From: Rhodoluna lacicola
GTDB taxonomy: Bacteria > Actinomycetota > Actinomycetes > Actinomycetales > Microbacteriaceae
Length of the DNA: 64,000 nucleotides
Direction of reading: 5' to 3'
Assembly: GCF_000699505.1 (NCBI RefSeq)
Contig: NZ_CP007490.1
Coordinates: 1,178,001 to 1,242,000 of the forward strand
Shown: piece after piece, positions 24,784-30,007 of the stretch
Layout of the letters: every line of letters begins with the position of its first letter
Position numbering within the stretch: the first letter of the stretch is position 1
Program-made: the position numbers and the translations under genes
The notes under the pieces: generated by a model
The model's database searches: none
What the model saw: the letters and a program-made list of their open reading frames with translations, nothing else
Told to the model about the DNA's origin: nothing

Positions 24784-26088
24784 ATGGAGGTTGGTTTGAA
24801 CCGACTACTAAAGGGCCCGGCGCGCGCAATAAATGCGCTCATTGCGGGCTTCCTGATATTCGCAGGTCTTATGGCCGCTACCCCAGCTCACGCTGAGGAT
24901 GCTGATCCAAGTACCTATGCCTACACGATTGCCGGAACCTTCTTGCAGGACGAAACTGCAATTGAAGGCGTGAAAGTCACCGCAACCCTTGGTGACTTCA
25001 GTGCATCATCGGTCTCCAACGAGTGGGGCGAATGGTCCATCATGGTTCCCGAGCTCGGCAAGTACAAAGTTGAGATTGACGTCACAACAATTCCCGAAGG
25101 TTTTGCACTTTCGGATCCGGAAAATGGTGCGATTGGCGAAGCAGACCTATCTGAGACAGATTTCGCAGCTGTGCTGTTCTCCTTTGGTGCGGACACCTCA
25201 ACAAAAATTACTTTTGCTGATCAACTATTGATTCGCGTTTACGCCGGATTGAACTTTGGTTTGTTGCTTGCAATTGCGGCCATCGGCATCTCACTAATTT
25301 TTGGTACGACCGGTCTTAACAACTTTGCTCACGGTGAAATGGTCACCTTTGGTGCGCTAGTAATGTGGCTAGCGTTCGCGGTGCTAGAACTCAACATCGT
25401 CATTGCCGCCGTTGTTTCTATCCTTGCCGTTACGGCATTTGGTTGGGCGCAAGATGCAGGTCTGTGGAAGCCGCTGCGTAAGCGCCGCATGGGCCTTAAC
25501 CAAATGATGATTGTGTCAATTGGCTTCTCAATCGTTGCCCGCTACCTAATGTTGCTCTTCTTCGATGGTGACACTAAAGATATCGGTGGCAGCGGAAACA
25601 TCATTCAACTTGGCCCGATCTACACAAGTGACATCACCATCATCGGAATGATCATCAACGTAGTAGCTCTTGCCGGTGTTGCGCTGTTCTTAACCCGCAC
25701 CCGTGTAGGCAAGGCAACCCGCGCAGTTAGTGACAACGCGTCTCTAGCTGCCTCAACCGGTATTGACGTTGAGCGAATCATTCGCATCGTTTGGTTGTTC
25801 GCGGCTGCACTCACCGGTCTTGCCGGAGTGCTTTACGGACTGCAGTTCCAGGCGAACTGGCTAACCGGTTTTGACATTCTGCTATTGCTATTCGCGGCCG
25901 TGACCCTTGGTGGTCTTGGTACCGCTCTGGGCGCAACCGTTGGTGCGCTAATCATCGGAATGGTAGTTGAAGTTTCTTCGATGTTTATTCCTAACGAACT
26001 TAAGTACGCAGCTGCTCTTGTGATCTTGATTGTGATCTTGATCGTTCGTCCACAGGGTGTACTCGGCAAGAAGCAAAGGATCGGTTAA
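24784..26088 (+). CDS. livH: Branched-chain amino-acid-type ABC permease LivH fused to a secreted beta-sandwich domain
   Basis: The C-terminal 290 residues are a LivH permease (FGTTGLNNFAHGEMVTFGA, the coupling loop NASLAASTGIDVERIIR, and GGLGTALGATVGALIIG). Unusually they are preceded by a signal-peptide-like segment (about 14-37, ending TPAHA) and an extracytoplasmic domain (about 45-135) whose wording, GTFLQDETAIEGVKVTATLG then WGEWSIMVPELGKYKVEID, fits a carboxypeptidase-regulatory-like beta-sandwich. Normal LivH is about 290-310 residues. GGAGG at 24786-24790 lies 5 nt before TTG 24796, so translation may begin there rather than at ATG 24784. It heads livH-livM-livG-livF. The frame is continuous, so the fusion is not an assembly of two frames. 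Amino-acid substrate is family-based inference. Confidence 0.88.
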   Translation: MEVGLNRLLKGPARAINALIAGFLIFAGLMAATPAHAEDADPSTYAYTIAGTFLQDETAIEGVKVTATLGDFSASSVSNEWGEWSIMVPELGKYKVEIDVTTIPEGFALSDPENGAIGEADLSETDFAAVLFSFGADTSTKITFADQLLIRVYAGLNFGLLLAIAAIGISLIFGTTGLNNFAHGEMVTFGALVMWLAFAVLELNIVIAAVVSILAVTAFGWAQDAGLWKPLRKRRMGLNQMMIVSIGFSIVARYLMLLFFDGDTKDIGGSGNIIQLGPIYTSDITIIGMIINVVALAGVALFLTRTRVGKATRAVSDNASLAASTGIDVERIIRIVWLFAAALTGLAGVLYGLQFQANWLTGFDILLLLFAAVTLGGLGTALGATVGALIIGMVVEVSSMFIPNELKYAAALVILIVILIVRPQGVLGKKQRIG

Positions 26089-26092
26089 GTAA

Positions 26093-27076
26093 ATGGATTT
26101 CCTAAATATTCTCAACCTCACCGGAGGTGAGTTGATTGGTGCATACACAGCTGCCTACGTGCTCTGTGCTCTAGGTTTGGCCATGCACTTTGGCTTTACC
26201 GGTCTGCTCAATTTTGGTCAGGCTGCATTCGCCGCTCTTGGTGCTTATGGCTATGCCATCTCAACCCTTAGCTGGGGTTGGCCCTGGTACAGCGCAGTGC
26301 TCTTTGGCTTGGTTTGCTCCGCGGCCTTTGCCGTGATCTTGGGTATTCCAACCCTTCGTCTTCGCGCTGACTACTTGGCGATTGTTACGATTGCCGCTGC
26401 CCAAGCCTTGCGCTTTGCCTTTGGTACCGGTGAGTATCGCGAGGTTACCGGTGGCGCCAACGGTCTCAGCCAGTTTGGCGAGAGCTTCTACAGCTTGAAC
26501 TTCTTCCCGGATGGCCGCTACGAAATTGGTGTGCTGACCTTCTCAGCTGATGAATTGTTCATCCGTGTAGTTGGTTGGGGTCTCGTAATTCTTGCAGCGG
26601 TATTGCTCTTGCTTCTGACTCGCAGCCCATGGGGTCGTGTGCTTAAGGGAATTCGCGAAGATGAAGACGCGGTACGTGCACTTGGCAAGAACATCTTTGC
26701 CTACAAGTTGCAGTCACTGGCAATTGGTGGCTCGCTAGCCAGCCTTGGTGGCATGGTCTTCGTGATGTCCTCACAGACCAACCAGCCATCAACCTGGGGA
26801 ACCAACTTCACCTTTATGATTTGGACCATTCTGCTTCTTGGTGGAGCGGCAACCATTCTTGGTCCGATTGTTGGTGGAATGATTTTCTTCGCACTGTTGA
26901 TGTTCCTGCAGAACGTTCTAGAAGGATTAGTAAACCTTGGTCTGCTACCTTTCCTAGACATCGCTCAGGTGGGACAGATTCGATTCCTACTTGTTGGTTT
27001 GATTTTGATGCTTCTAGTGATCTTCAGGCCTCAAGGAATTTTCGGAAACAAAAAGGAGATGCAGTTCAATGGCTAA
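26093..27076 (+). CDS. livM: Branched-chain amino-acid-type ABC permease LivM
   Basis: Second permease subunit (327 residues), with about eight to ten membrane helices. LivM marks: FGFTGLLNFGQAAFAALGAYGYA, LRLRADYLAIVTIAAAQALR and the coupling loop GIREDEDAVRALGKNIFAYKLQSLAIGG. Starts 4 bp after livH and overlaps livG by 8 bp (ATGGCTAA), so the four genes form one tightly coupled operon. It pairs with LivH as the membrane channel for the substrate delivered by the binding protein encoded convergently at 28751-30007. Confidence 0.93.
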   Translation: MDFLNILNLTGGELIGAYTAAYVLCALGLAMHFGFTGLLNFGQAAFAALGAYGYAISTLSWGWPWYSAVLFGLVCSAAFAVILGIPTLRLRADYLAIVTIAAAQALRFAFGTGEYREVTGGANGLSQFGESFYSLNFFPDGRYEIGVLTFSADELFIRVVGWGLVILAAVLLLLLTRSPWGRVLKGIREDEDAVRALGKNIFAYKLQSLAIGGSLASLGGMVFVMSSQTNQPSTWGTNFTFMIWTILLLGGAATILGPIVGGMIFFALLMFLQNVLEGLVNLGLLPFLDIAQVGQIRFLLVGLILMLLVIFRPQGIFGNKKEMQFNG

Positions 27077-27926
27077 TTCAATTTCAGTTGGTAACCCATC
27101 TCCTGGATGCAAGAAGGTCGACCCAATCCTGGTGGCAGACAACGTCACTAGACAGTTTGGTGGTCTTACTGCGGTTAACGTGGAGCACCTAGAAATTCCT
27201 CGCGGTTTGATCACCGCCCTTATCGGACCAAACGGTGCCGGTAAGACCACGATGTTCAACCTGTTGACCGGATTTGATAAGCCAAACACCGGTACCTGGA
27301 ACTTCGACGGGCATGACCTAGCCGGCGTTGCCCCCTACAAGGTCGCGCGCATGGGAATGATCCGCACCTTCCAGCTAACCAAGGCGCTGAGCCTGTTGAC
27401 AGTTATCGACAACATGCGTCTGGGCGCGCAGAACCAGCCTGGTGAGGGTTTGCTTCAGTCTTTCCTTCGACCAATCTGGAAGAAGCGCGAAGTAGAAATT
27501 ACCCAGCGCGCCGATGAGCTTCTAGAGCGCTTCAAGCTTGATGCCAAGCGTGAAGACTTTGCGGCTTCTCTTTCTGGTGGTCAGCGCAAGTTGCTAGAGA
27601 TGGCACGCGCGTTGATGAGCAAGCCAAAGCTTGTGATGCTAGACGAACCAATGGCGGGTGTGAACCCCGCTTTGACTCAGAGCCTGCTTGAGCACATCAA
27701 GGGACTAAAGAACGATGGCACCACAGTTCTCTTTGTTGAGCACGACATGCACATGGTGCGCAACATTTCTGACTGGGTAATTGTGATGGCCGAGGGCCGC
27801 ATTGTTGCCGAGGGCCCACCGACTCAGGTGATGAAAGATCAGGCGGTTATCGATGCCTACCTGGGTGCTCACGCAGACACCGATCTAGGTACCGTTGCAA
27901 TCAAGACCATTAAGGCAGGTAAGTAA
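27069..27926 (+). CDS. livG: Branched-chain amino-acid-type ABC transporter ATPase LivG
   Basis: ATPase subunit of 285 residues. Walker A GPNGAGKTT, the LivG-specific FQLTKALSLLTVIDNM region, ABC signature LSGGQRKLLEMARAL, Walker B LVMLDEPMAGVNP, and the switch histidine in LFVEHDMHMV. The first 20 residues before DNVTRQFGG are longer than usual; a later start was not obvious. Overlaps livM by 8 bp and is followed 2 bp later by livF. Confidence 0.94.
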   Translation: MANSISVGNPSPGCKKVDPILVADNVTRQFGGLTAVNVEHLEIPRGLITALIGPNGAGKTTMFNLLTGFDKPNTGTWNFDGHDLAGVAPYKVARMGMIRTFQLTKALSLLTVIDNMRLGAQNQPGEGLLQSFLRPIWKKREVEITQRADELLERFKLDAKREDFAASLSGGQRKLLEMARALMSKPKLVMLDEPMAGVNPALTQSLLEHIKGLKNDGTTVLFVEHDMHMVRNISDWVIVMAEGRIVAEGPPTQVMKDQAVIDAYLGAHADTDLGTVAIKTIKAGK

Positions 27927-27928
27927 AT

Positions 27929-28663
27929 ATGGCTAAGGCAATTCCAGTAGTTGAGGCTAAAGACCTGCACGCAGGTTACCTACCTGGCATCAACATTCTT
28001 AACGGATGTTCACTGACCGCCAATAAAGGCGAGTTGATCGGAATCATCGGACCTAACGGTGCCGGCAAGTCAACCTTGCTCAAGGCAATCTTTGGTCAGG
28101 TGAATGTGCGTAGCGGAAACATCTTGCTGAATGGTGAAGACATCACCGGACTCAAGGCAAATAAGTTGGTGGAAAAGGGCGTAGCTTTTGTGCCGCAGAC
28201 AAACAACGTTTTCCCTAGCTTGACCATCGAAGAAAACCTTGAGATGGGTGTGTTCCAGAATCCAAAGGCTTTCAAGGAACGCTTTGAATTCGTGACCAGC
28301 ATTTTTCCTGACCTAGCTACCCGCCGCGCGCAAAAAGCCGGGTCACTTTCCGGAGGTGAGCGTCAGATGGTTGCCATGGGTCGGGCACTTATGGTTGACC
28401 CTTCTGTGCTTCTTCTGGATGAGCCTTCAGCGGGTCTGTCTCCGGTTCGTCAGGACGAGGCTTTCCTGCGGGTTCGTGAAGTAAACAAGGCGGGCGTAAC
28501 CGTGGTTATGGTAGAGCAGAACGCACGCCGTTGCTTGCAGATCTGTGACCGCGCCTACGTGCTTGACCAGGGTAAGGATGCACACACCGGTACCGGCCGT
28601 GAGCTACTAACCGACCCTAAGATGATCAAGCTCTACCTTGGCGACCTAGCCGAACAAAAGTAG
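27929..28663 (+). CDS. livF: Branched-chain amino-acid-type ABC transporter ATPase LivF
   Basis: Second ATPase (244 residues) of the importer. Walker A GPNGAGKSTLL, GVAFVPQTNNVFPSLTIEENLEMG as in LivF, signature LSGGERQMVAMGRAL, Walker B VLLLDEPSAGLSP and VVMVEQNARRCLQI with Gln in place of the switch His, which is usual for LivF. It closes the operon; a strong hairpin lies 43 bp after its stop. Confidence 0.94.
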   Translation: MAKAIPVVEAKDLHAGYLPGINILNGCSLTANKGELIGIIGPNGAGKSTLLKAIFGQVNVRSGNILLNGEDITGLKANKLVEKGVAFVPQTNNVFPSLTIEENLEMGVFQNPKAFKERFEFVTSIFPDLATRRAQKAGSLSGGERQMVAMGRALMVDPSVLLLDEPSAGLSPVRQDEAFLRVREVNKAGVTVVMVEQNARRCLQICDRAYVLDQGKDAHTGTGRELLTDPKMIKLYLGDLAEQK

Positions 28664-28750: not shown

Positions 28751-30007
28751 TTACTTAACAGTGTTACCTGCAACAACCTTGATTAGGTTGTCTGAGTACT
28801 GTCCCTTTGAGTTGAAGCGGTAGATACCGATGTAAGCACCGGTTGGGTCACCGTTCTTGTCGAATTCAACTGGACCTGAAACACCATCGTAGTTAACCTT
28901 CTTGCCAGCCTTCAGTGCTGCTAGAGCAGCCTTGAAGTTTGACACGGTAACCTTGCCAGCACCCTTTAGAGAGATGTTAGTGATCTCCTTCTTGATGCCA
29001 GGGCCTGATGCGTCCTTTGCAGCCTGTGCAGCAATTGCTGCTAGCAATACTGCATCGTAAGTCTCAGCACCGTATGAGTACTCGGTTAGAGTCTTGCCGG
29101 TCTTAGCCTTGTAAACAGCTGCAAGCTTTGACTTGAAGCCAGCTGATAGTGCCTTACCAGGAAGAGTACCCTTCGCACCGTTTAGGTATGAAGCGAATGA
29201 TTCCTTTGAGTAGTCAGCTAGGTTTCCATCAACGAAGTAGATGTTTGAACCGTTGTAACCCTTTGACTTCAATGCAGGAATCGCCTTGTAAGCCTCGTTG
29301 TATGAGATTAGAAGAACTGCATCTGGGTCATCTGCAAGAGCCTTGTCAACGATTGACGCAAAGTTGGTCTCGTTCTCAGGGAATGCGTATGACTTTACAG
29401 TTGCCTTACCCTTGGTCAGAGTTGCTGCAGCAACATCCTTTAGACCGTTACCGTATGAGGTGTCCTGGTAAACGATTGCTACGTTCTTTGCAGCGTCCTG
29501 AAGGATCTGGTTTGCAACGATCTTTCCCTGAAGTAGGTCAGATGGAGCAGTACGGAAGTAGTAACCGCCGTCTTTCCAGGTTGAAAGGTCAGGTGCGGTG
29601 TTAGACATTGAGATCTGAACAACCTTTGCACCGGTGATCTTGTTGATGATGCTTCGGGTTACACCTGAGGCTGCAGCACCAATAACAACGTCAACCTTGT
29701 TAGCCAAGTGCTTGGTTGCTGACTGGTCAGCGATGCTTAGAGTGTCACCGTCACCAGAGTCAAGAATGCTTAGTGAAACCTTCTTGCCAAGTACTCCACC
29801 GGCAGCGTTGATCTCGTCAACGGCCATGTGTAGACCTGCAATTTCAGGTGGTGAAAGGAATGAAAGGGCACCAGTTAGTGGGATAACCGCACCAATCTTT
29901 AGCTGGCTGTCTGCAGCCTGAGCCGGCAGAGCGGTACCGATTGCAAGGGCGATTGCAGAGAAACCTGCAACTGCTCCAAGCGCGCGGCGCTTTGAAACGT
30001 TGTTCAT
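28751..30007 (-). CDS. livK: Branched-chain amino-acid-type substrate-binding protein (no lipobox)
   Basis: 418-residue periplasmic-binding-fold type I protein: IGAVIPLTGALSF, LHMAVDEINAAGGVLGKKV, VVIGAAASGVT and YFRTAPSDLLQG are typical of LivK/urea-amide binding proteins. The Sec signal peptide (KRRALGAVAG...ALPAQA, cut near residue 31) ends in AQA-A, and the whole protein has no cysteine, so it cannot be a lipoprotein. For an organism with a single membrane this is unusual. It is convergent with the livHMGF operon and has its own promoter. AGGAG lies upstream of ATG 30007. Substrate is inferred from family. Confidence 0.92.
   Translation of the reverse strand: MNNVSKRRALGAVAGFSAIALAIGTALPAQAADSQLKIGAVIPLTGALSFLSPPEIAGLHMAVDEINAAGGVLGKKVSLSILDSGDGDTLSIADQSATKHLANKVDVVIGAAASGVTRSIINKITGAKVVQISMSNTAPDLSTWKDGGYYFRTAPSDLLQGKIVANQILQDAAKNVAIVYQDTSYGNGLKDVAAATLTKGKATVKSYAFPENETNFASIVDKALADDPDAVLLISYNEAYKAIPALKSKGYNGSNIYFVDGNLADYSKESFASYLNGAKGTLPGKALSAGFKSKLAAVYKAKTGKTLTEYSYGAETYDAVLLAAIAAQAAKDASGPGIKKEITNISLKGAGKVTVSNFKAALAALKAGKKVNYDGVSGPVEFDKNGDPTGAYIGIYRFNSKGQYSDNLIKVVAGNTVK

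Follow-up and report, generated by a model that had tools for sequence, protein, structure and literature searches.

The stretch of DNA analysed here (henceforth the window) covers 64,000 nucleotides of the Rhodoluna lacicola genome, whose 1.43 Mb lie on one contig. An intact frame of 434 codons on its + strand (24784–26088) encodes, in order, a putative signal peptide, a ~90-residue domain and an entire LivH permease, and the fusion of these three parts in one frame, first proposed from the letters alone (the sequence-only reading), proved real by the frame and its Pfam matches. The next three genes on the + strand are livM (26093–27076), encoding a partner permease without such a domain (PF02653; NCBIfam LivM is the best match, under its cut-off), and two ATPase genes, livG (27069–27926; PF00005 and BCA_ABC_TP_C) and livF (27929–28663; PF00005; NCBIfam LivF is the best match, under its cut-off). 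Convergent with this operon lies livK (28751–30007, − strand), the sole Peripla_BP_6 match above cut-off in the genome, which encodes a binding protein with a signal peptide (site between AQA and AD) that has no lipobox. Judged from its sequence, the locus is a five-gene LivHMGF-K importer, the substrates of which, deduced from the family, would be amino-acid-like nutrients; the long frames around it read as ordinary housekeeping genes.

LivH had initially been read from the ATG at 24784, and whilst that frame holds, its start moves to a TTG at residue 5 (24796–24798, + strand). The ATG (24784–24786) overlaps a Shine-Dalgarno (SD) sequence, GGAGG (24786–24790, + strand), and the TTG, located 5 nt past it, is the likeliest start codon in a scan of relatives for an SD sequence plus start. 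Codons 2–5 of the longer frame (EVGL) are common to many close relatives, while codon 1 varies among M, T and L, which is expected if codons 2–5 represent the ribosome site and the TTG start. Translation of LivH is therefore likely to begin at TTG 24796 and not at ATG 24784, which would probably make the protein 430 amino acids long. The putative signal peptide (residues 5–37; 24796–24894, + strand) has a hydrophobic core and an AxA site between AHA and ED that are kept in relatives, A37 being conserved at ≥90% in the LivH alignment, and would be cleaved at this site. In a non-redundant scan of 117 distinct relatives (128 distinct loci less 11 that were skipped: nine among L113–L141 plus the fragment L097, which lack the FAHG marker, and L021, which lacks a signal core), an SD sequence plus start lay immediately ahead of the signal core in 110 and an SD-like start lay near the first transmembrane helix (TM1) in eight; all 117 have an AxA-type cleavage site, by a pattern that is permissive. 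Near residue 146 of the window's livH, where the sequence-only reading had considered a downstream start that would undo the fusion, the scan found no SD sequence plus start.

The membrane part of LivH (25213–26085, + strand) matches BPD_transp_2 (PF02653) at residues 154–419 (E 2e-36; 126 bits vs a cut-off of 26.8). The window permease is LivH-like and lies outside the NCBIfam LivH equivalog NF008011 (102.1 bits; cut-off 379). UrtB was considered as an identity for it and rejected (TIGR03409, 105.6 bits vs a cut-off of 250.3). In the model, LivH has the permease fold of a type II importer (BtuC/HmuU-like), and its membrane part aligns with BtuC (1l7v_A) over 252 residues with a Z of 15.6 and an rmsd of 5.0, from BtuC residue 41 onward only. 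BtuC's first helix thus appears to be missing in LivH, which would place the LivH N-terminus outside the membrane, in keeping with an exported domain behind a signal peptide; PMC3098086 describes UrtB as likewise lacking this helix. Loop charges also support the earlier proposal that the domain lies outside: the predicted loops of LivH carry 12 lysines and arginines on the inside vs one on the outside, a count that rests on a nine-helix assignment made by hand from the AlphaFold2 model. The domain is thus probably exported to the outer face.

Residues ~45–131 (24916–25176, + strand) are predicted by AlphaFold2 to form a seven-strand beta-sandwich, a delineation that also draws on Foldseek/VIA and on Pfam matches of family members, and a linker to TM1 with scant regular secondary structure and lower pLDDT follows (residues 132–143; 25177–25212, + strand). 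The full-length model has a mean pLDDT of 85.8 and a pTM of 0.70, with blocks of 83–94 over residues 51–130; for the domain folded alone the values are 88.7 and 0.77, with blocks of 89–98 in the sandwich and 51–54 in the linker. Residues 38–145, singled out in the sequence-only reading for structure prediction, hence contain a confidently predicted sandwich, and disorder over residues 45–135, which would have counted against it, is absent from the models. The carboxypeptidase-regulatory/Cna-B fold that had been read from the letters was borne out by the structure matches: the domain matches the B domains of SdrD, the CnaB domains of pilins, carboxypeptidase D and transthyretin-like proteins, with Z values of 7.7–10.4 among the matches listed (50 rows), where a Z below 8 may reflect a common arrangement only and the top rows are somewhat higher. 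SdrD (10ps) aligns over 99 residues (Z 10.4, rmsd 3.9) and CnaB2 (8bdw_A) over 88 (Z 8.4, rmsd 2.9), and by its model the domain has the CnaB/transthyretin-like seven-strand fold, aligned over most of its length.

Family searches gave weaker matches to the same domains. CarboxypepD_reg (PF13620) matches 52 of the 54 members of an alignment (A1) at E ≤ 0.01, at best 5e-8 (54 of 67 sequences were aligned; the 13 left out are mostly near-duplicates, and three fragment loci are also absent), and the window's own copy scores 18 bits, under the Pfam cut-off of 32.3. A profile of the domain matches SdrD (E 3e-8), NOMO2 (E 5e-8) and, more weakly, others among the PDB sequences, in which a phmmer search with the whole LivH protein gave no match at E ≤ 1. 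The LivH domain thus shares fold and weak family matches with CarboxypepD_reg, CnaB and SdrD_B domains and, unlike them, is fused to an importer permease. Many CnaB domains form an isopeptide bond and have a conserved triad of Lys, Asn (or Asp) and Glu. In the consensus of the LivH domain (alignment A2) lysine is in the majority at no position, which may speak against such a bond. The most conserved positions are G, P, W, Y, L and F, which look structural. The domain is mostly acidic: segment 38–146 of the window LivH has 21 acidic and four basic residues, and the median net charge over 102 members is −10 (negative in 93, not negative in nine).

The sequence-only reading had held that ordinary LivH has no such part. 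This is so for the sampled ordinary LivH proteins, in which both the signal peptide and the exported domain are missing, and for most of the sampled actinobacterial UrtB, but the fusion itself is common in Actinomycetota. Among 394 genomes drawn from the class, 230 contain some LivH match at E ≤ 1e-40, and in at least 128 the match begins at profile position 55 or earlier and covers the domain or most of it; a further 16 matches of family f35 type are split by an insertion, and the four of these that were examined carry the domain. Among 396 genomes drawn from the phylum, 66 match at E ≤ 1e-60 and at least 52 from position 60 or earlier, 43 of these 52 lying outside the class. The same architecture, for which a search of homologues and their taxonomic spread had been suggested, is thus present in at least 128 of 394 and at least 52 of 396 genomes, in draws that overlap and with counts confined to class and phylum; an all-species scan reaches close relatives only. 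Within the genus, LivH matches at E ≤ 1e-20 occur in 39 of 59 relatives, with an ordinary LivH in G046 and fragments in G030 and G035. On plasmids, two of 171 matching records cover ≥80% of the query, both from Actinomycetota. Some genomes contain two domain-bearing LivH copies (L199 and L200 in G686; also G593 and G776), and the f35 proteins L180–L183 have, besides the domain, an additional insertion within the membrane part.

The four sampled LivH proteins of family f37 (L169–L172) have no domain and keep the signal peptide shortly ahead of TM1. In a tree of the membrane part (120 rows, without three fragments and identical rows) the presence of the domain needs two changes, and the tree favours a history of one gain and one loss, the loss being in f37. 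Alternatively, f37 may have branched off early and never possessed the domain, as the base of the domain-bearing clade is a polytomy; the starred branches of the tree force one change only, although a single change was seen in no tree of the 200 bootstrap replicates.

The domain appears, from substitution ratios, to be under purifying selection: dN is below dS in all 36 pairs compared among relatives, with a median ratio of 0.17 in the domain vs 0.07 in the membrane part, in pairs that were filtered by dS and similarity and are partly non-independent (five LivH tails recur, and L224 is the L035 record). We compared pairwise distances of the domain with those of its partners as partial correlations beyond the LivH membrane part, in the 64 systems left when 86 complete ones had been thinned. 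LivM is the strongest partial correlate (0.238; 0 of 500 permutations as high), followed by LivK (0.125; 24 of 500); no correlation was found with LivG (−0.028; 323 of 500) or LivF (−0.124; 497 of 500). One subset of 32 systems gave 0.332 for LivK and 0.586 for LivM (each 0 of 300 permutations as high), another, of 29 systems, −0.129 and −0.004, and when the window's clade was left out the LivK value was 0.034 (93 of 300). The co-divergence of the domain with LivK is weak in these distances, depends largely on the window's clade and is not robust as a test of contact. Domain and LivK diverge faster in the window's clade (ratios of 1.28 and 1.20 vs 1.12–1.16 in the remaining parts, compared over 7, 8 and 9 systems).

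In the window's clade all eight readable LivK N-termini (the window and seven loci) lack a lipobox, whereas the sister clade has one. The LivK proteins concerned (L034–L038, L041, L042 and the window's, 28751–30007, − strand) have an ordinary signal peptide. By a hand count of domain-bearing loci with a permissive pattern, LivK has a lipobox in 78, has none in seven and the window, and is unclassified in 20; a script recount over distinct LivH gave 71 with a lipobox, four without (L035, L036, L041 and L208) and 24 unclassified, amongst them L034, L037, L038 and L042, which by eye have none. Save for L208, which two scripts scored as lacking it and the frame of which is doubtful, all LivK of domain-bearing systems without a lipobox fall within the window's ten-row clade (two rows unclassified), and the LivK sequences of L181–L183 show the lipobox. 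The window genome contains Lgt, and six of the eight other binding proteins found in it with three Pfam families show a lipobox by eye; the two without, L241 and L243, are SBP_bac_1 matches, one of which reads PstS-like. From this distribution, LivK has probably lost its lipid anchor in the window's clade, apparently once. In f37, LivK lacks the lipobox in three of four systems, and LivH also lacks the domain. The idea that the domain is a general substitute for the lipid anchor was rejected, since in the majority of systems with the domain LivK carries a lipobox.

We considered what an exported sandwich could do on a permease of this class. The sequence-only reading had suggested that it might hold the binding protein or touch the wall; the first is plausible, and the second is neither favoured nor countered by the analysis. 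Ordinary LivH (BPD_transp_2) shares with the window LivH the membrane part, the partners LivM, LivG, LivF and LivK and the type II importer fold. One Klebsiella UrtB (524 amino acids; L236:520–2094) resembles it further in having a signal peptide and a module ahead of TM1, but that module consists of HEAT repeats and is unrelated to the beta-sandwich. Deinococcus UrtB has 300 amino acids, and most sampled actinobacterial UrtB are open frames of 295–321 amino acids, others having 666, 788 and 427 (the last below cut-off). The HEAT module of UrtB and the sandwich of LivH together suggest that permeases of this class have acquired additional modules at their outside N-terminus on at least two occasions. 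MalF-P2 sits between helices, within its chain (residues 91–271), whereas the LivH domain is N-terminal and belongs to a type II permease. MalF is part of a type I importer (PMC8134467), and MalF-P2 contacts the binding protein MalE (PMC3150292); as an outside region of a permease that touches the binding protein, the role we propose for the LivH domain, MalF-P2 is its closest working parallel.

By this analogy the most likely role of the domain, which we hold tentatively and at somewhat short of an even chance, is to dock or retain LivK in the manner of MalF-P2 in the Actinomycetota form of LivH. The signal peptide would carry the sandwich across the membrane and then be removed; the sandwich would fold outside, tied to TM1 by a short flexible linker, TM1 would enter the membrane from the outside and the permease would work like BtuC, in the way of type II importers. 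The domain would provide an extra outside contact that binds LivK, or the complex of LivK with LivH and LivM, and would keep LivK near the channel mouth and orient it for docking. Docking is suggested by the MalF-P2 parallel, by the HEAT module of UrtB and by domain distances that track those of LivK and LivM; contact with LivK and any effect on transport are putative. Counting against it, the four related f37 proteins do without the domain, which is hence dispensable; the LivK signal is lost without the window's clade and negative in the 29-system subset; and a lipobox is present on LivK in the majority of systems with the domain, while two of eight other binding proteins found in the genome have none.

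A different role, which we consider somewhat unlikely, would lie in biogenesis: signal peptide and sandwich would aid translocation of the LivH N-terminus or the stability of LivH with LivM and have no direct part in transport. The rank of LivM as strongest correlate of domain distance (0.238; 0/500) and the retention of the signal peptide in f37, where the domain is lost, would fit; however, in ordinary LivH, whose alignment starts at the same first helix, this part is missing, and the LivM correlation is absent from the 29-system subset (−0.004). Unlikely, too, is that the domain contacts the envelope and binds peptidoglycan, a glycan or a surface protein so as to fix the transporter in the wall layer. 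Several of its closest folds do come from Gram-positive cell-surface or pilin proteins (SdrD, SpaD and BcpA), but it is one small, mostly acidic domain on a flexible linker, without a repeat array, and its best-conserved positions look structural.

A special case of docking, in which the domain of the window's clade is now the main anchor of a LivK that lost its lipid, is improbable. It would account for the eight LivK without lipobox beside a sister clade with it, in a genome with Lgt, and for the faster divergence of domain and LivK there (1.28 and 1.20 vs 1.12–1.16); yet the lipobox was probably lost in a single evolutionary event, L241 and L243 lack it as well, and in f37 both domain and lipobox are missing from three of four systems. 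An artefact, in which translation begins near TM1 and what lies upstream goes unexpressed, can practically be dismissed: the TTG start codon and the SD-like start near TM1 in 8 of 117 relatives would allow it, but an SD sequence plus start that precedes this core in 110 of 117, dN below dS in 36 of 36 pairs and an ordered predicted fold argue against it.

Overall, we favour docking or retention of LivK. An extended form of this reading, in which the domain is an ancient actinobacterial docking platform, parallel to the HEAT module of UrtB, that now also retains the lipid-less LivK of the Rhodoluna-like clade, we regard as doubtful. Term searches of the open-licence literature returned no description of a LivH-sandwich fusion, which automatic annotation of domains may already display. 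The fusion, a modified form of a known permease class, is common within Actinomycetota, many of which have a permease that brings its own outside domain. It bears on the general question of how cells without an outer membrane hold and orient binding proteins at their importers, for which two natural experiments are at hand: one family (f37) without the domain in which the signal peptide is kept, and one clade without the LivK lipobox in which the domain is kept.
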